DNA from: a virus
Direction: 5' to 3' (one strand)
IMG/VR virus record: IMGVR_UViG_3300030090_000989
Span: 1-31,025 of that record
DNA length: 31,025 bases
Shown here: one piece after another, positions 4,457 to 30,800 of the stretch
Layout: each line of letters begins with the position of its first letter
Position numbering within the stretch: position 1 is the first letter of the stretch
Notes under the pieces: generated by a model
Told to the model about the DNA's origin: nothing
The model's database searches: none
The model's input: only the letters and a program-made list of their open reading frames with translations
Position numbers and translations under genes: made by a program

Positions 4457-7405
4457 ATGGGATTAGATTTTTCTACAGTGGCTAGTTCTGCGTTAGGAAC
4501 AGTTGGAACAAATATAAAAGAAGAAGCAAAACGTAAAGCTGGTCTTGAAGATCAACTTTTTTTAAGCTTGTATGGTAAAGTAGAAGATGCTACTGCTGCT
4601 ACAGAACAGCAACTGGTTACTGCAGAACAAGAAATTCGTAATGGAATGGCTATTGGACTGAAAACTGAAAGAGAATTAGAAAGCTGGCTTGCTACATCAC
4701 CGAAGCGAAGACAAAGTTTACTAGAAAATTACGATAGGTATGTTAGTACACACACACTAAAAGAGGGAGAAACAATGCCCTCTGCTATAGATTTGATTAT
4801 GCCGCCTTCGTATAAAAGACCAGAGAATTTTAGTCCAGTTGCAGAAGAAGCTGTTCGTAAAATGGCAGAGAGATATGTAGGTATTTACGATACTTCAACT
4901 ATCTCTCCTGTAGAGGAAAAAACTTTTAGCCAAAATTTTCAAGATAGTTTGAATACTACTTTAGGGTTGCAAAGCCCTAGACAGTCTGCTCTTAAACGAA
5001 TAGCAGACATGACACAGAGGAATGTATCAGAACTTGAAAAAATACTAAGACCATCTAAACGAACTCCTTTTACAGTTACTGGAGGAATGTTGGCCTTTAA
5101 AATGCCAGTTAATATACAGGACCAAATAGCAATCCAAGCTGCTAAACTTGCATTAAAACAAGCACAGGATAAAAATGCAAACATTGAGGATGTAGAGTTT
5201 TATAAAAAGTATTTTCAAAAAAGAAATGCTCAAGGGCAATGGGAAGATGATCCAACAAAACAACATATAAATATTTTTGGATTGAAAGTTGCAAGAGGCA
5301 CTAAACTATCTCAGCTAACGGACCACCTTGCACTGGGAACTACGTTGGCTAGTATTTATGAATCTCTTGGTGTAGATGCACCTACTTCTGCTGATCATCA
5401 GCGTTTTAGAAATGACTATCTGAAACAATGGGGAGAAATTACAGGACAAACTATAAATGATGGTGTGTCGGGAGTTACATTTGCAGATGCTGGAAGTATT
5501 TTAGCTGCTTACGCTCGTACTGGTGCTGCTCTGGATTCTCTTTTATTTGGACAAATTCGTGATCCTAAAAACCCAAATCCTGCTCAAAATAAAATACTTC
5601 AAGGTCACACCGTTGATCAAACAGTAATGTTTGGAATATCTACCTACACTAAATGGGTAGAAATTACTAAGAAAAGGGCTGAGAAGGGCGTAACACCAGA
5701 TACTTCTTTTAAAGCATTTATAAATGTAGCAAAGACAGGAGGACTAGACGCAGTGGAGATAAGAGCAGATATCTTTGGTACAACCACTATTCCTACTGAC
5801 ATGCTTAACAAAATAAAACTATGGGCAGAAGGTGGCACTACACTTAAAGACCAGTTCAATAATAGTTTGCTACCAGAATACGTAGATGGCATGACCTATG
5901 GCGGTTATTTGCAGACACTAAATGATGAGATACAGCGACGGGCCACTGCCCAAAATATTAATATTGACCCACAAACCAATTTCAATAATGCCGTTCTTAT
6001 TATACATCAATTAGACAATGGAGTGTATGGTCGGCCTACACAATCTGGTGGTTATAATGCTGTGACTAGTACGTTTCCCATAAATCCTTCTGCTGGAGCT
6101 AGTGAACCTGAAGTAGCTGCTTCTATAGTTACGGAAGTTAGTACAAACCCAAACACAAATATTCCTGTAACAAAACGTGGAGATGCAGAAGTAGATTTGC
6201 CAGAATGGTCTGCGACAATTATTGATGAAATAAATCAGGAGGCACGAAAGGGAATAGCTAGTGGAAAAGACCCAGACGGAAATTCTGTTGACATTGAAAA
6301 CATGTCTAAATACAACCAACAACTGCATGAACTAGTATGGTATGCTAGTGCTGCAGCAAATAGAAATATAGACGTAGCTGCATTGTATCCTACCGACGAA
6401 GCTACTACAGATGTTATTGCCGCACCCGGTGTGTCTGTACTTAGCCCTGACGAAACAGCTACAGTAACAGAAGAGGATGAATTAGAGAGTGTAGAAGCTA
6501 AAGTAGAAGAAGTGAAACCTTTTGATTCTATGGAATGGGTAAGGGGCAGTATAACTAAAATTGACAGAGATGACTATAATTCTTTTCAATTAAACCCAGA
6601 CGATAAAAAAGTAGTTAGAGCTTTTAGCGAGGGTTACACAAAGAAATGGAAAGATTCTGGTGGCGCTGATGGCCCACTGAAAGAGTATCCTCCGTTTAAG
6701 TTTCTTAAATTTGCAACAGACAATCAGGACTTTAAAGGCACCGTGAATGATTTTTATAATGCCTTTTTATCTGACACACCTGTTGTGCCATACGTTGTGA
6801 CTGAGAAAGGTGGTGGTGAAGAAAAAACCACTGGCTTAATGAGTCCTAAACCTAAACCAATGGAAGTTTTAAATAAGGCAAGAGACGACCTATCTGAACT
6901 TACAACTAGGGACGATATTTTAGCGTATGACATAAAAGGCATTGATAAAAAAGGTAAAGATGCGCTTAGAACCGCTGTAAATGAGCGACTAGCAGAGCTT
7001 GGTTTGAGTAGAGAAGTAGGTACAGAAGGCGAAGGATTTTTCTCAAGAATAGGAAGGGGGGTTAGGGAAGGAGTAGAAAAATTGGGCGAAACAAGTCGTG
7101 GGGCGCAAGAAGAAAAGCTTCAGCTAAAAGAAGATAGCTTTTTTGACAGAATAAGCGGCATCATGGGAATTGATGGTAGAAATACTATTATGGAAGAAAT
7201 TGTTGATAAAGATTTATCTGAAGCAGAAGCGATTAATTTAATAGTAGAAAAATTTGTTGAACCAAATAACAAGCTGTTTCAAATTCCCGGAGAACGAAAA
7301 GGATTTACTGAAACAATACTACCTTATTCTGATAGAGAAAAAGAGCAAGCGTTTATTTCTTTAGGAAAAAGACTATATGATAGTCTAGCAATGGAGACTC
7401 CATAA
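4457..7405 (+). CDS. Large internal virion / ejection-type protein (982 aa)
   Basis: A single 982-codon frame starts at ATG 4457, one base after the preceding stop, with GGAGCAG upstream. The product is predominantly helical and charged, without signal peptide or obvious membrane segments. An acidic stretch (EEDELESVEAKVEEVK) falls around residue 675-690. No enzymatic motif (lysozyme, peptidase or lytic transglycosylase) was found by eye. Size, position and the paired 1156-aa neighbour resemble the internal core or ejection proteins of podoviruses (compare T7 gp15/gp16), which form a DNA conduit across the envelope. This is inference; no homology was tested. Confidence 0.8.
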   Translation: MGLDFSTVASSALGTVGTNIKEEAKRKAGLEDQLFLSLYGKVEDATAATEQQLVTAEQEIRNGMAIGLKTERELESWLATSPKRRQSLLENYDRYVSTHTLKEGETMPSAIDLIMPPSYKRPENFSPVAEEAVRKMAERYVGIYDTSTISPVEEKTFSQNFQDSLNTTLGLQSPRQSALKRIADMTQRNVSELEKILRPSKRTPFTVTGGMLAFKMPVNIQDQIAIQAAKLALKQAQDKNANIEDVEFYKKYFQKRNAQGQWEDDPTKQHINIFGLKVARGTKLSQLTDHLALGTTLASIYESLGVDAPTSADHQRFRNDYLKQWGEITGQTINDGVSGVTFADAGSILAAYARTGAALDSLLFGQIRDPKNPNPAQNKILQGHTVDQTVMFGISTYTKWVEITKKRAEKGVTPDTSFKAFINVAKTGGLDAVEIRADIFGTTTIPTDMLNKIKLWAEGGTTLKDQFNNSLLPEYVDGMTYGGYLQTLNDEIQRRATAQNINIDPQTNFNNAVLIIHQLDNGVYGRPTQSGGYNAVTSTFPINPSAGASEPEVAASIVTEVSTNPNTNIPVTKRGDAEVDLPEWSATIIDEINQEARKGIASGKDPDGNSVDIENMSKYNQQLHELVWYASAAANRNIDVAALYPTDEATTDVIAAPGVSVLSPDETATVTEEDELESVEAKVEEVKPFDSMEWVRGSITKIDRDDYNSFQLNPDDKKVVRAFSEGYTKKWKDSGGADGPLKEYPPFKFLKFATDNQDFKGTVNDFYNAFLSDTPVVPYVVTEKGGGEEKTTGLMSPKPKPMEVLNKARDDLSELTTRDDILAYDIKGIDKKGKDALRTAVNERLAELGLSREVGTEGEGFFSRIGRGVREGVEKLGETSRGAQEEKLQLKEDSFFDRISGIMGIDGRNTIMEEIVDKDLSEAEAINLIVEKFVEPNNKLFQIPGERKGFTETILPYSDREKEQAFISLGKRLYDSLAMETP

Positions 7406-24636: not shown

Positions 24637-25128
24637 CTACCACCACTCAGGAGCAGCCCTGCCCCTGTCCCACTTAGCGAAGTATGACTTCTCTCCTTTA
24701 TAATAATTACGGTAGGCTTGAACAGGATCATCTTCTACTTTGTACTGGTCAGGCATACACTGAGGAAAGGATATTGGAAACTTTACAATACTTGTTTGGT
24801 ATGGAACATCGTCAACAAAAGCTTTATGTAATCTCTCACTCGCATGATGCTTTCCATATCTATGAGTGTACTCTTGACATAGATGACCAAACAATCTGCG
24901 TGTCCAAATATAGTTTAGGATACCATGCCGTACCCACACGGTAGATGGATGGTTCTTGTGTGCCGACTTGTACATGCCGTGCTCATCCGCATACTCACTG
25001 TCACTATCTGTCATGCGCCACGCAGTTGATAGCATCTGTGCAGTTTCCAAGATCATCTTGACCACATGCTTGTCGCAATGCGACTGTGCAGCCAGCTTTG
25101 GATCATTATGTAATCTAAACAGGTTCAT
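24637..25128 (-). CDS. Conserved phage protein with CDKHVVKMILE motif (163 aa)
   Basis: The opening MNLFRLHNDPKLAAQSHCDKHVVKMILETAQ is split by no gap and, with HKNHPSTVWVR, the GHLCQEYTHRYGK block, PDQYKVEDDPVQAYRNYY and KWDRGRAAPEW, matches a family frequent in large and marine phages. It is sometimes annotated as pyrimidine-dimer glycosylase-like, but I cannot confirm that activity. Conserved His and Cys residues suggest an enzyme or metal site. The start ATG 25128 overlaps the previous stop (TAATG) and has AAGGAGAAC upstream. Confidence 0.8.
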   Translation of the reverse strand: MNLFRLHNDPKLAAQSHCDKHVVKMILETAQMLSTAWRMTDSDSEYADEHGMYKSAHKNHPSTVWVRHGILNYIWTRRLFGHLCQEYTHRYGKHHASERLHKAFVDDVPYQTSIVKFPISFPQCMPDQYKVEDDPVQAYRNYYKGEKSYFAKWDRGRAAPEWW

Positions 25129-25501: not shown

Positions 25502-25523
25502 TTATACATCCTTTCAAATAGTA

Positions 25524-25566
25524 ATGGCAGGTGCATAGGGGAGAACTAAACCTACACACCTGCCAT
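25524..25566 (-). ncRNA. Stem-loop with 11-nt anti-ribosome-binding-site loop
   Basis: In the leftward transcript 16 consecutive pairs form: AUGGCAGGUG with CACCUGCCAU, then two G-U wobbles, then UAGG with CCUA. The 11-nt loop is UUUAGUUCUCC. The two wobbles would be C-A mismatches in RNA of the opposite strand, so the fold favours the leftward transcript. The loop is the exact complement of GGAGAACUAAA, which precedes the ATG of the genes at 26752 and 29071, and differs at one position from the leader at 28732. It lies between the DUF932 gene and the 43-aa gene. Confidence 0.6.
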
Positions 25567-25580
25567 ACTTTACGGCAAGA

Positions 25581-26465
25581 CTATGCAGCTAGTCGCTGCT
25601 CAAAGTCATCATATCGAATGAGCTTCTTAAACGCATCACCCCGCACCAAGGCTTGTACGTTCTGCTCTTGCCGCAATTGCACGTTACCAACTTCAGCCCC
25701 CCGTAGGCTGTTACTATCAACGTGCGTACCGTAATGAGTAAGTGCATTATAAAATGCATACCCATTTCGCCCAATCTGAGTACTGTAAGTATCCCACAGC
25801 CCCATCATACGGCCCAACCACTTCTCGTTAACCTTGACCTTAGTCTTGGTCTTGGTCAGACACAGATTTGTAGTCATAAAGTTCTGCACTGTGTCTCGCT
25901 CCATAGGCACTCGCCGCATGTGATTAAAGAGGTGAGCATCATCCTCTAAAATCATAGGCCATGTAGCGGCAACCTGCCCTATCTTTTCTGGCTCTGTGCT
26001 AATCGTGTGCTTAAATACCACAGAAGTATTTTCTGCTATTCTAGCTTGACCATTGGAACACCATAGCCGTTTGATAAAGGCAGATACGTCATACTTCAAA
26101 GACCCATCTACACTATTACGAACTCGCATTTGAAGGGCGGTCTTCTCGCCCACAATACGATCATAATTATAGGACTTCAAAGTAATATCAGCAAGCATAC
26201 GAGCACCATTGTTCATGGTACTCCACTTGATCTCTGCATCGTCAAGATCAAGACCCGACCCTTCCAGACCCTCAACAAGAGGTTCCCACAGGGCATTGTA
26301 TGGTTGTGGAGTATAGCGAGACTTGACTATACCCAACACTTGATTAGTGTCATCACGAACAATCTTCTGTCCGATAGAAGTAGGTAACCTTACCCCATCA
26401 TGCTCAATGGGCATAAGGATAGGAGTAAAGTCAAGTTCTTTTGGTAGTGCGAATGTGTCTAACAT
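25581..26465 (-). CDS. DUF932 family (phage/plasmid-like) protein (294 aa)
   Basis: The start ATG 26465 has AAAGGAG. The sequence shows the DUF932 pattern: GVRLPTSIGQKIVRDDTNQV near the start, the middle block RMLADITLKSYNYDRIVGEK, DVSAFIKRLWCSNGQARI, and VSAxx-like helices to the end (FYNALTHYGTHVDSNS). Members are widespread in phages, plasmids and integrative elements, and the molecular role is not firmly known. It has its own promoter at 26493-26522 and is followed by the anti-ribosome-binding-site hairpin, so it may be strongly expressed early. Confidence 0.88.
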   Translation of the reverse strand: MLDTFALPKELDFTPILMPIEHDGVRLPTSIGQKIVRDDTNQVLGIVKSRYTPQPYNALWEPLVEGLEGSGLDLDDAEIKWSTMNNGARMLADITLKSYNYDRIVGEKTALQMRVRNSVDGSLKYDVSAFIKRLWCSNGQARIAENTSVVFKHTISTEPEKIGQVAATWPMILEDDAHLFNHMRRVPMERDTVQNFMTTNLCLTKTKTKVKVNEKWLGRMMGLWDTYSTQIGRNGYAFYNALTHYGTHVDSNSLRGAEVGNVQLRQEQNVQALVRGDAFKKLIRYDDFEQRLAA

Positions 26466-26492
26466 TTATAATCTCCTTTGATTGATGATTAA

Positions 26493-26522
26493 GTTATACC
26501 ACAGACTGATCTTAGATGTCAA
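26493..26522 (-). promoter_or_regulatory. Sigma70-type promoter of the DUF932 gene
   Basis: On the - strand TTGACA (26522-26517), an 18-bp spacer and TATAAC (26498-26493). The -35 includes the TGA stop (26521-26519) of the 77-aa gene. The leader to ATG 26465 is about 20 bases and contains AAAGGAG. Confidence 0.75.
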
Positions 26523-26752
26523 CAACTAAATTCACTAGTGTACAAAACCTTTGTACTCATAGGGAGCATGTAACGTGCATTGTACTCCTTTACATATGCT
26601 AATTCAATGTCCGCATTGGGATGCTGCTCTCTTACCATATTCATAGCGTACTCTGTCGCAGTCACCCAATCCTCATCGTACAGGGCAACCTCTTTTCTGC
26701 CATGTGTGTGTACATGGTAGTCATGCACATCAACTCCTACATGATACATCAT
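26519..26752 (-). CDS. Hypothetical His/Tyr-rich protein (77 aa)
   Basis: ATG 26752 is the first of two adjacent ATGs and is preceded by GGAGAACTAAA, the leader sequence complementary to the hairpin loop at 25524-25566. The product starts MMYHVGVDVHDYHVHTHGRK, with six His in the first 20 residues or so, then an alpha/beta part (EDWVTATEYAMNMVREQHPN). The His cluster could bind metal. The family is unknown. Its stop is built into the next promoter's -35. Confidence 0.75.
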   Translation of the reverse strand: MMYHVGVDVHDYHVHTHGRKEVALYDEDWVTATEYAMNMVREQHPNADIELAYVKEYNARYMLPMSTKVLYTSEFSC

Positions 26753-26778
26753 TTTAGTTCTCCTTTAATGTTAAAAGG

Positions 26779-27033: not shown

Positions 27034-27588
27034 TTAGTCCTCCCTTAAATATGTGTGACCCTTTAGCTTGACGGTAACTGTCATGCTCTTAGCCCACGAT
27101 GGATTGACTTTATCGTGTGCATAGTAATGGGTAGCTCCATCTACTATGTCCTCACCAAACCCTGTATACACAAGAAAGGCAGCTATCACGCTGTCCTCCC
27201 ACCCATCAAGGTTATATACAGCATCACTACGTCCATCACAGTACCACGAGAACTGGCATCTATGCTTTACAGGGTAAAAGACACGATCACCATAGTCCAG
27301 ATCAGGGTATTGTTTTGTTTTCCATGACTCTCGCACTGGACCTTCTGTAATTACTTCACAGACATCCTCTGGATATTTCATGGACGCAACTCTATTCATA
27401 ACCACCTGTGCCGTAGCTATTTTGTCATCAAACGATGCCCCACGAGCCTCATGGTACGAGTTAATAGCCAAACAATATAACTCCTCATGTAAATCAATAG
27501 GGTCACCTGTATGCATAGGGTTTACCACCACTAGACCCATCACTATTTGTGTTAACGCAGTTAAGGCGTTCAAACTAATATCAAGCAT
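27034..27588 (-). CDS. SleB-type cell-wall hydrolase, probable endolysin (184 aa)
   Basis: This protein likely cleaves peptidoglycan at lysis. The catalytic domain begins with SYHEARGASFDDKIATAQVV, with the conserved Glu of E(A/S)RG, continues VMNRVASMKYPEDVCEVI and QFSWYCDG, and ends with THYYAHDKVNPSWAKSM, all typical of the Hydrolase_2 (SleB) family. Residues 1-24 or so (MLDISLNALTALTQIVMGLVV) are hydrophobic and may act as signal or signal-anchor, which would allow export without a holin. The start ATG 27588 has GAGGG upstream and overlaps the 49-aa gene by 8 bases. Confidence 0.88.
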   Translation of the reverse strand: MLDISLNALTALTQIVMGLVVVNPMHTGDPIDLHEELYCLAINSYHEARGASFDDKIATAQVVMNRVASMKYPEDVCEVITEGPVRESWKTKQYPDLDYGDRVFYPVKHRCQFSWYCDGRSDAVYNLDGWEDSVIAAFLVYTGFGEDIVDGATHYYAHDKVNPSWAKSMTVTVKLKGHTYLRED

Positions 27589-28227: not shown

Positions 28228-28443
28228 TCATAAAATAAATATAGAAGCGACCAGACCCATCGCTGCTGCCCAACAAAAGCCAAGCACAAAGTCGTTTATC
28301 TTTATAGCTTCAGCCTTCTTGTAGTAGGGAAGTTCTTTGAGAATTTCCTCCATCAGTTCTTTCTTTAGGTCAGCAAACTCTATCTCCCTCACCAGCAAAC
28401 TTGATTTCGATGGGTTGGTTGATCGATTGGTTTTCTTGTACAT
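28228..28443 (-). CDS. Small tail-anchored membrane protein (71 aa)
   Basis: ATG 28443 (MYKKTNRSTNPSKSSLL) follows GGAGG by 5 bases. A charged helix (EFADLKKELMEEILKELPYY) leads to a C-terminal membrane helix (INDFVLGFCWAAAMGLVASIFIL). The shape matches small tail-anchored phage proteins. Upstream of it are a stem-loop and one copy of the palindromic operator. Confidence 0.75.
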   Translation of the reverse strand: MYKKTNRSTNPSKSSLLVREIEFADLKKELMEEILKELPYYKKAEAIKINDFVLGFCWAAAMGLVASIFIL

Positions 28444-28453
28444 AGTCACCTCC

Positions 28454-28490
28454 TAGTTAGCTGGCCCAGCAACACCAGACCAGCCAACTA
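28454..28490 (-). other. Stem-loop immediately before a ribosome-binding site
   Basis: TAGTTGGCTGG pairs with CCAGCTAACTA (11 pairs, one G-U) around a 15-base loop in the leftward transcript. The wobble would be an A-C mismatch on the other strand. The stem ends directly at GGAGG of the 71-aa gene and could modulate its translation. Confidence 0.6.
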
Positions 28491-28504
28491 ATACAGTTGT
28501 ATTA
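28489..28504. promoter_or_regulatory. Palindromic operator-like site, copy 1
   Basis: TAATACAGTTGTATTA: 7-bp arms (TAATACA/TGTATTA) and a GT centre. It includes the TAA stop (28504-28502) of the 76-aa gene. Confidence 0.75.
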
Positions 28505-28732
28505 AACTAGGTGATATACCCGTGTAACACCCCTACGATTGTTTTCATAGATGGCTCGCAAACCACTCTTCTTTGAACGAATGGTTTCTCTGCCACTGTT
28601 TGGCCTAAATGCTGCCACACTTACGTATGGAACATCAACACGCCAGCCGTTGTTCAACGTGTTCACACCCAACACGGTGCGATACTTTGGTGAACGAAGG
28701 TTCTTGCGAATGGTTACTTTGAATGTATACAT
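28502..28732 (-). CDS. Hypothetical basic protein (76 aa)
   Basis: ATG 28732 follows GGAGAACTAAT, one mismatch from the leader complementary to the hairpin loop at 25524-25566. The product (MYTFKVTIRKNLRSPKYRTV..., SVAAFRPNSGRETIRSKKSG) is basic and probably beta-rich, perhaps nucleic-acid binding. The family is unknown. Its stop is part of palindrome copy 1. Confidence 0.75.
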   Translation of the reverse strand: MYTFKVTIRKNLRSPKYRTVLGVNTLNNGWRVDVPYVSVAAFRPNSGRETIRSKKSGLRAIYENNRRGVTRVYHLV

Positions 28733-28734
28733 AA

Positions 28735-28899
28735 TTAGTTCTCCTCTTCATTGAGTATTTGAGTTTTACTTACACGCTTGTACACTTTACCACTAGGTAC
28801 TTTCTTCTGTTGAAACCGTCGCCACGCTAACGATCTTGCAAACTTGCTGCGTGGTAACAGGCTTAACTTACGTCTAGTTTTGCTCTTGCTATATGCCAT
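28735..28899 (-). CDS. Very basic 54-aa peptide
   Basis: ATG 28899 has AGGAG upstream (spacing 7) and overlaps the preceding gene by 11 bases; TAA at 28737-28735 lies two bases before the next start. The product (MAYSKSKTRRKLSLLPRSKF, then WRRFQQKKVPSGKVYKRV) is Lys/Arg-rich with an acidic end (NEEEN). The family is unknown; RNA or DNA binding is plausible. Confidence 0.7.
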   Translation of the reverse strand: MAYSKSKTRRKLSLLPRSKFARSLAWRRFQQKKVPSGKVYKRVSKTQILNEEEN

Positions 28900-29071
28900 C
28901 TAATTCTCCTAGTGCATTTGCATTGTCACAGGCATCAGCGTAGCTATCATAGAGACAATCATCTATGAACTTTCCCTGATGCACGACAGCATACCAATCC
29001 TTACGGTCCTCTGGTCGTAGAGATTTGTCATCTTTCGTTATGACTAACACCACTGAATAGTCATTCGACAT
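28889..29071 (-). CDS. Hypothetical small protein (60 aa)
   Basis: ATG 29071 (MSNDYSVVLVITKDDKSLR) follows GGAGAACTAAA exactly, so I reject the longer frame beginning at 29125. It has an alternating hydrophobic strand (YSVVLVIT), YAVVHQGKF and an acidic helical end (DSYADACDNANALGEL), a compact alpha/beta fold. The family is unknown. Its leader is one of the two perfect matches to the hairpin loop complement. Confidence 0.78.
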   Translation of the reverse strand: MSNDYSVVLVITKDDKSLRPEDRKDWYAVVHQGKFIDDCLYDSYADACDNANALGELDGI

Positions 29072-29085
29072 TTTAGTTCTCCTCA

Positions 29086-29103
29086 TTAATACAGTTGTAT
29101 TAA
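29086..29103. promoter_or_regulatory. Palindromic operator-like site, copy 2
   Basis: TTAATACAGTTGTATTAA, 8-bp arms with a GT centre. It includes the TAA stop (29102-29100) of the Cys-rich gene and ends 4 bases before GGAG of the 60-aa gene. Confidence 0.8.
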
Positions 29104-29831
29104 GCGTACTTGGCACCATTGCCATGCGCCACTATAGCGATAGACTTGGCCGCTACAGTAGCACCTGCACACAAACCACAGTTACTACAATTTGTGCGAT
29201 ACCCTGCTTCCTTGCTGGCAGGACAAGATATTTCCTTACCCTTGACTAGTTCATCAAGAGTTTTAATTACACGAAACGTGCGCTGCTTCTTTGCCCACGC
29301 TTGCTCTGCTTCTTGCAGAGTATCAGCCGACACCATCACCATGCTGGCATCGAATGAACTTGTAGGTATATCTTGCTGATGACTGTAGCCAGTATGACCA
29401 CTGGCCTTGGACAACAGACTATCCCACACATAGGCGGGTACAGCAGCAGGGTCACCGTATGAACCTAGCCGCACCATTCTACCCTCACCAAGCGCAGCGA
29501 TAGCGTTATGCCCCTTGGCATGGTCATAGATGCCTCTATGGTAACTTTTCCAGACATTCAACGGTGCCTGATAGATCGTGACATAGCACGTTCTGTACTT
29601 GGCAAGAGGTTTGTCTGGATCATCATGCGCTACACCACGATGGCGACAGTTACCGCATATGCTGAAGTCAGCACCTGTCTTGTTGGCTACCCGTGGATCA
29701 TGGTCTCGCATTATTATCCACGTTTGTATCATGTCGCCTGTTTTGTCATTGCTGGATGACTTTTTGTAGCCTGTAGCCACCACAACGATTGGTTCACCAT
29801 CCAACAGGGATGGACCATCATAGATAATCAT
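29100..29831 (-). CDS. Cysteine-rich phage protein, possible metal-cluster enzyme (243 aa)
   Basis: I start at ATG 29831 (MIIYDGPSLLDGEPIV), with GAGGA seven bases upstream, rather than ATG 29870, which overlaps the previous gene. Cysteines fall in two groups: C59, C62 (CGNC) and C82 (RTCYVTIYQAP), then C203 (SCPAS), C215, C218 and C221 (CSNCGLC). The middle has RLGSYGDPAAVPAYVWDSLL and TGYSHQ. The layout recalls phage proteins with CYA-type motifs and an FRxxxSGD-like block (DUF7227-like), possibly related to radical-SAM folds. That relationship is uncertain. Zinc or an iron-sulfur cluster is likely. Confidence 0.75.
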   Translation of the reverse strand: MIIYDGPSLLDGEPIVVVATGYKKSSSNDKTGDMIQTWIIMRDHDPRVANKTGADFSICGNCRHRGVAHDDPDKPLAKYRTCYVTIYQAPLNVWKSYHRGIYDHAKGHNAIAALGEGRMVRLGSYGDPAAVPAYVWDSLLSKASGHTGYSHQQDIPTSSFDASMVMVSADTLQEAEQAWAKKQRTFRVIKTLDELVKGKEISCPASKEAGYRTNCSNCGLCAGATVAAKSIAIVAHGNGAKYA

Positions 29832-30536: not shown

Positions 30537-30550
30537 GACGTTTCCTTTCA

Positions 30551-30568
30551 TTAATACAGCTGTATTAA
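30551..30568. promoter_or_regulatory. Palindromic operator-like site, copy 3 (perfect palindrome)
   Basis: TTAATACAGCTGTATTAA is a perfect 18-bp palindrome. It includes the TAA stop (30567-30565) of the 65-aa gene. Confidence 0.8.
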
Positions 30569-30762: not shown

Positions 30763-30784
30763 TTGTTTCTCTTTTTCCTATGAC

Positions 30785-30800
30785 TAATACAGTTGTATTA
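30785..30800. promoter_or_regulatory. Palindromic operator-like site, copy 4
   Basis: TAATACAGTTGTATTA lies about 30 bases downstream of the predicted start of the early promoter and 22 bases before ATG 30762. It is well placed for repression or attenuation of the early operon. Confidence 0.8.

Follow-up and report, generated by a model that had tools for sequence, protein, structure and literature searches.

Lambdoid nut sites (boxA-boxB) consist of a short conserved block and then a hairpin, placed just after an early gene. In Staphylococcus aureus, a UCCCCUG motif in the 3′-UTR of the icaR mRNA pairs with the message's own Shine-Dalgarno (SD) sequence (PMC3868564). The Rhizobiales sRNAs SmelA075 and SmelA099 carry hairpin loops of sequence CCUCCUCCC (PMC3927594), and phages P1 and P7 make an antisense RNA, c4, that targets the ant message (PMC12197685). 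According to PMC9038755, HMO-2011-type phages are dominant in the ocean and occur widely there; a literature search found no description of a regulatory RNA in them. Here we analyzed a stretch of 31,025 bases from a virus record, called the window throughout, and identified what is almost certainly a structured, conserved RNA element 3′ of its DUF932 gene.

The DUF932 gene and its surroundings

DNA polymerase and gene order place the window in an HMO-2011-type phage. The polymerase shares 55% identity with its counterparts in Puniceispirillum phage HMO-2011 and Roseobacter phage CRP-345; the integrase-primase-helicase-polymerase-RNR order is similar to that of HMO-2011-type phages. The DUF932 gene (PF06067; 25581..26465, - strand) was assigned from its Pfam match (E 7e-12) and its relatives, and the element is in its 3′ end. 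The GGAGA of its own SD (26472..26476, -), which stands at the same place in relatives, is a candidate cis partner of the loop described below. An earlier note on this DNA had named a promoter at 26493-26522, and a sigma-70-like promoter of DUF932, TTGACA-18-TATAAC, is indeed present there on the - strand; many relatives have a similar, TTGACA-type promoter at this place. The AlphaFold model of the DUF932 protein (pLDDT 74) had no PDB match at E <= 0.001, and we rejected a recognizable RNA- or DNA-binding fold on this basis. On the other side of the element, the downstream genes vary between relatives, and in most members the next gene starts <60 nt away, leaving no space for a promoter.

The early region also encodes a pyrimidine-dimer glycosylase-like protein (24637-25128, -) and a cell-wall hydrolase (27034-27588, -), and has a promoter-like site with a perfect TTGACA-16-TATAAT at 27836-27809 (-). 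The palindrome TTAATACARYTGTATTAA occurs four times between small early genes, at about 28484-28503, 29085-29104, 30548-30567, and 30781-30800; relative G001 has it twice and relative L003 once, as a variant, and the palindrome is a candidate repressor operator. A second strong intergenic hairpin (28453-28491, -), with 18 bp and a GUU loop, lies directly before the ribosome-binding site of the gene at 28228-28449.

Structure and conservation of the hairpin

Leftward RNA from 25566 to 25524 folds into an uninterrupted 16-bp stem (5′ arm 25566-25551, 3′ arm 25539-25524) with an 11-nt loop, UUUAGUUCUCC (25550-25540), beginning 14 nt after the DUF932 stop. The fold energy is -28.7 kcal/mol (z = -7.1), which was equalled by 0 of 200 shuffles; the rightward strand of the region folds at -24.5. 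Folding thus reproduced the continuous stem and loop that had been described in leftward RNA, along with its two G-U pairs, of which we counted exactly two.

We compared the locus with 26 other IMG/VR loci whose DUF932 proteins are 54–90% identical to that of the window. All 26 have a hairpin just 3′ of DUF932, 14–84 nt after the stop, although in L011 the contig end falls within the 3′ arm. Across members the stem is 16–21 bp and the loop 8–12 nt long. The heptamer GUUCUCC (25540..25546, -, in the window), the complement of GGAGAAC, ends the loop in 24 of the 26 relatives and is invariant in alignment A5 (0-based columns 23–29). The two exceptions, L038 with loop UUGUUCCC and L039 with loop UUUUCUCCAUC, are still anti-SD-like (UUCCC or UUCUCC). 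In L038 an additional long hairpin (6882-6980; about 17 bp) separates the DUF932 stop from the anti-SD hairpin.

When the window-like members (group A) are set against the other group of relatives (group B), identity is 48% in one arm and 36% in the other (about 42% together) but 100% in the loop heptamer. The loop is, on this comparison, a strongly conserved anti-SD sequence on a stem whose own sequence is free to change. In the 13 sequences with gapless arms, both partners have changed in 11 of 18 stem pairs, and pairing is kept in 94.9% of cells. Covariation scored 0.62, against 0.37 in shuffles (none of 500 reached 0.62) and at most 0.21 when the alignment was slid. Stem cells include 38 G-U and 3 A-C combinations, and the conserved molecule is therefore the leftward RNA, that is, the DUF932 strand. 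The earlier note had proposed both the leftward RNA as the functional strand and the DUF932 message as the carrier; the covariation and the G-U/A-C asymmetry support the former, and the latter is supported as well. Neither the recurrence of the element 3′ of DUF932 in all relatives nor the covariation had featured in that note.

Extent of the module

The conserved features reach beyond the main hairpin on both sides. Between groups A and B, synonymous codon identity in the last ten DUF932 codons is 0.81, the highest in the gene, against a gene mean of 0.46 (permutation P 0.0003 for that window of codons, 0.03 for any window). A hairpin of 4–6 bp, of the GCAGC-N5-GCUGC type, lies over this coding end and recurs in most members, with L008 lacking it; in the window it is GCAGC-GACUA-GCUGC (25585..25599, -), identified from the alignment and the synonymous-site conservation. 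The linker from the stop to the main hairpin (25567..25580, -) contains a conserved block, UUGYCKU in alignment A7 (consensus CUUGUCKUAA), which recurs as UUGUCKU in most members.

Every member has a U-rich, terminator-like tail after the stem, UACUAUUUGA in the window (25514..25523, -). In group B the tail is long, e.g., CUGCC-UUUUUGUUUU, CUGCC-UUUUUGUUUUA, or similar, and in group A it is weaker, with only about 5–6 U per 8 nt. The terminator scan accepts loops of 3–8 nt, a limit that element loops of 9–12 nt exceed. As read from these alignments, the whole module would span roughly 100 nt and comprise the small hairpin, the UUGUCKU linker, the hairpin with the anti-SD loop, and the U-rich tail.

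Searches for other copies

Rfam gave no match anywhere in the window, and Rfam covariance models at the hairpin gave chance-level scores far below the gathering threshold; membership of a known RNA family was rejected accordingly. We searched contigs with a calibrated model of the element, model R1. It indicated a single copy per phage, with no second copy in the contigs examined; nothing convincing turned up in the absence of DUF932, and the partial HMO-2011 and CRP-345 records gave no match. Two of 80 polymerase-anchored contigs had the element, both of them DUF932 carriers, and the other 78 had none, bar one weak match (E 0.19). A loop-pattern search of IMG/VR beyond the clade returned truncated, stem-less, or weak matches only, and a single scan of 84,980 bacterial and archaeal genomes found no relative. 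In phages CRP-212 and CRP-3, where DUF932 is more distantly related, the 3′ hairpins are different ones and have no comparable loop.

The loop and the early-gene leaders

The window contains three exact copies of GGAGAACTAAA in all. One is at the loop (25540-25550, +), and the other two, on the - strand (26753-26763 and 29072-29082), immediately abut ATG 26752 and ATG 29071. These two are the leaders GGAGAACUAAA of the genes at 26519-26752 and 28889-29071, and both are the exact complement of the loop, as had been claimed. The sequence search likewise bore out a one-mismatch match in the leader GGAGAACUAAU (28734-28744, -) before ATG 28732 of the gene at 28502-28732. A further GGAGAAC leader, unmentioned in the earlier note, precedes the glycosylase-like gene at 24637-25128. 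Matches to GGAGAACTAAA with at most two mismatches numbered 30 in the window against 11.3 expected, and no shuffle reached 30.

The further claim, that the loop is antisense to the 26752 and 29071 leaders, did not hold up among relatives. No relative has the A that stands at loop position 4 in the window, and it is this base that makes the 11-nt match complete. Other group A loops have U at this position or are shortened, leaving one mismatch to leaders of the GGAGAACUAAA/G kind; the near-complete relative G006, with loop UUUUGUUCUCC, has nine leaders ending GGAGAACUAA(A/G). Exact 11-nt pairing as a conserved feature was therefore rejected, since relatives with the same leaders carry the U or a shortened loop, and the alignment of relatives showed no loop–leader covariation at the sole informative base. 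In G006, seven small early genes stand in tandem with near-identical leaders GGAGAACUAA(A/G)AUG (L060, 323-2221), an arrangement suggesting that early genes are shuffled as modules carrying a standard leader.

We also counted GGAGAAC among GGAG leaders, using mechanical ORF calls in related genomes. In group A no other GGAG leader is as common (32/220); the counts are 1/86 in group B and 17/682 in element-less relatives, defined as HMO-2011-type phages without a model R1 match. The enrichment of group A over the element-less set has a Fisher P of 5e-10, a value that overstates the independence of the counts; group B is not different from the element-less set. L008 retains the loop heptamer and has no GGAGAAC leaders. 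Thus, with group B and L008 keeping the heptamer beside hardly any GGAGAAC leaders, the loop is kept where the leaders are not. In duplex energies calculated for the loop against all leaders, group B was no better than element-less phages and group A was enriched only in the tail of the distribution, and a general binding advantage of leaders in element-bearing phages was rejected. Pairing of the loop with the leader of the next gene was not consistent across relatives either. The 26752 and 29071 leaders are probably not what conserves the loop. Given the unusually frequent GGAGAAC leaders, trans pairing with early leaders may occur within group A.

Possible functions of the element

The sequence evidence points to an undescribed regulatory RNA. 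Our preferred explanation, which we put forward tentatively and at somewhat less than even odds, is that, in one clade of HMO-2011-type marine phages, the DUF932 transcript ends in a module whose GUUCUCC loop pairs with GGAGA-type ribosome-binding sites, that of its own message first. Given the stem and tail, this module would be where the transcript is processed or (partly) terminated at its 3′ end. A complete terminator would be odd here, since in most members the next gene begins too close (<60 nt) to have a promoter of its own. Pairing of the loop with GGAGA(A)-type ribosome-binding sites would then lower translation. The DUF932 leader would be the most constant candidate target, giving negative feedback as in the icaR mRNA, and in group A phages, as frequent users of GGAGAAC, other early leaders could be secondary targets.

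The single copy, the link to DUF932, the constraint on the coding end, and the two divergent loops (UUCCC or UUCUCC) argue for such a module. The own SD contains GGAGA in every relative whose leader is covered except L038 (GGAGC), so that at least GGAGA:UCUCC pairing is possible in all of these but L038. In L038 itself, a 7-bp duplex that includes one G-U could form between loop UUGUUCCC and the own leader, GGAGCAA. Conversely, a match like that of L038 has a chance of about 1 in 8 per SD on a rough estimate, which counts against the cis reading, as does the fact that some SD will pair with any C-rich loop. Within a genome, other leaders also pair better with the loop than the own DUF932 leader, which ranks from 2nd of 17 to 15th of 32, and the loop sequences are too uniform across relatives for a covariation test with the partner.

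A close rival, less probable in our judgment but still a serious candidate, is a leaky terminator, attenuator, or processing hairpin between the early and the integrase-primase-helicase-polymerase genes, with a loop read by a protein and an incidental likeness to an anti-SD. The reader could be a phage or host antitermination or RNA-binding factor, in a nut-site-like arrangement with UUGUCKU in the place of a boxA. The position between early and replication genes fits this explanation, as do the U-rich tail of every member with its long U-tract in group B, the conserved block just upstream of the hairpin, the constraint reaching into the coding end, and a loop conserved independently of leader usage. 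What makes it close is that the next genes lie within about 60 nt in most members and are probably readthrough-dependent. The boxB of a nut site is a short stem with a GNRA-like loop, however, unlike the 16–21-bp stem and 8–12-nt loop found here; no candidate antiterminator was identified, and the changed loops of both divergent members remain SD-complementary. An ordinary terminator hairpin that resembles leaders by chance would share the terminator-like tails and would account for the private A completing the 11-nt match, and short SD matches are frequent as SDs are common. For the heptamer this explanation is strongly disfavored and quite improbable, with seven loop bases invariant despite arms at 42% identity.

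The model of the earlier note, a trans-acting antisense RNA freed from the 3′ end of DUF932 that represses several early genes through their leaders, after the manner of c4 or the alphaproteobacterial anti-SD sRNAs, appears unlikely. Its anatomy is sRNA-like, and the exact match to two window leaders and the abundance of GGAGAAC leaders in group A, against their rarity in element-less relatives, speak for it. Group B nevertheless keeps the loop, as does L008, leader binding in group B is at the element-less level with group A differing in the tail only, the informative loop base does not covary with leaders, and the repeated GGAGAACUAA leaders may reflect shuffling of early genes. Least probable of all is a DNA-level element, such as a cruciform, a recombination or single-strand initiation site, or an insertion-type inverted repeat. 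A perfect inverted repeat where downstream genes differ between relatives would suit it, but the position is fixed, the copy is single, and the G-U pairs that far outnumber A-C would be mismatches in the other strand.

A broader proposal builds on both cis and trans pairing. Here the element would define a previously undescribed class of phage regulatory RNA, a released 3′-end module that shuts down early genes, its own included, at the move to replication, and group A would have multiplied GGAGAAC leaders as a regulon. We regard this as doubtful. A covarying stem with a fixed anti-SD loop, tied to DUF932, a gene of unknown function, offers a small testable handle on the possible control of translation or transcript ends in HMO-2011-type phages, and model R1 provides a calibrated means to find more such elements.

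Comparison with described systems

Of the described systems, the icaR mRNA shares with the DUF932 message a C-rich anti-SD motif in the 3′-UTR of a coding message, with the SD of the same message as potential partner. The element described here differs in that the motif sits in the loop of a compact, conserved hairpin; it belongs to phages of (probable) marine alphaproteobacteria and has no sequence relationship to icaR. SmelA075 and SmelA099 likewise present a conserved anti-SD loop motif on stems of variable sequence. Each of these bacterial sRNAs has three or four hairpins of this kind, and a genome holds several copies, whereas the phage element is one hairpin per phage, linked to DUF932, with the loop GUUCUCC. 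The c4 RNA is, like the element, a phage RNA with complementary sequences, probably in loops, that match a ribosome-binding site. Its pairing is target-specific; the specific pairing of the element does not covary, and the element lies 3′ of an early gene. Nut sites also place a conserved block and a hairpin just 3′ of an early gene, but the stem of the element is much longer, its loop is different, the likeness to boxA is weak, and no N-like factor was identified. We infer a resemblance in working to icaR, the Rhizobiales sRNAs, and c4, and claim no kinship with them.
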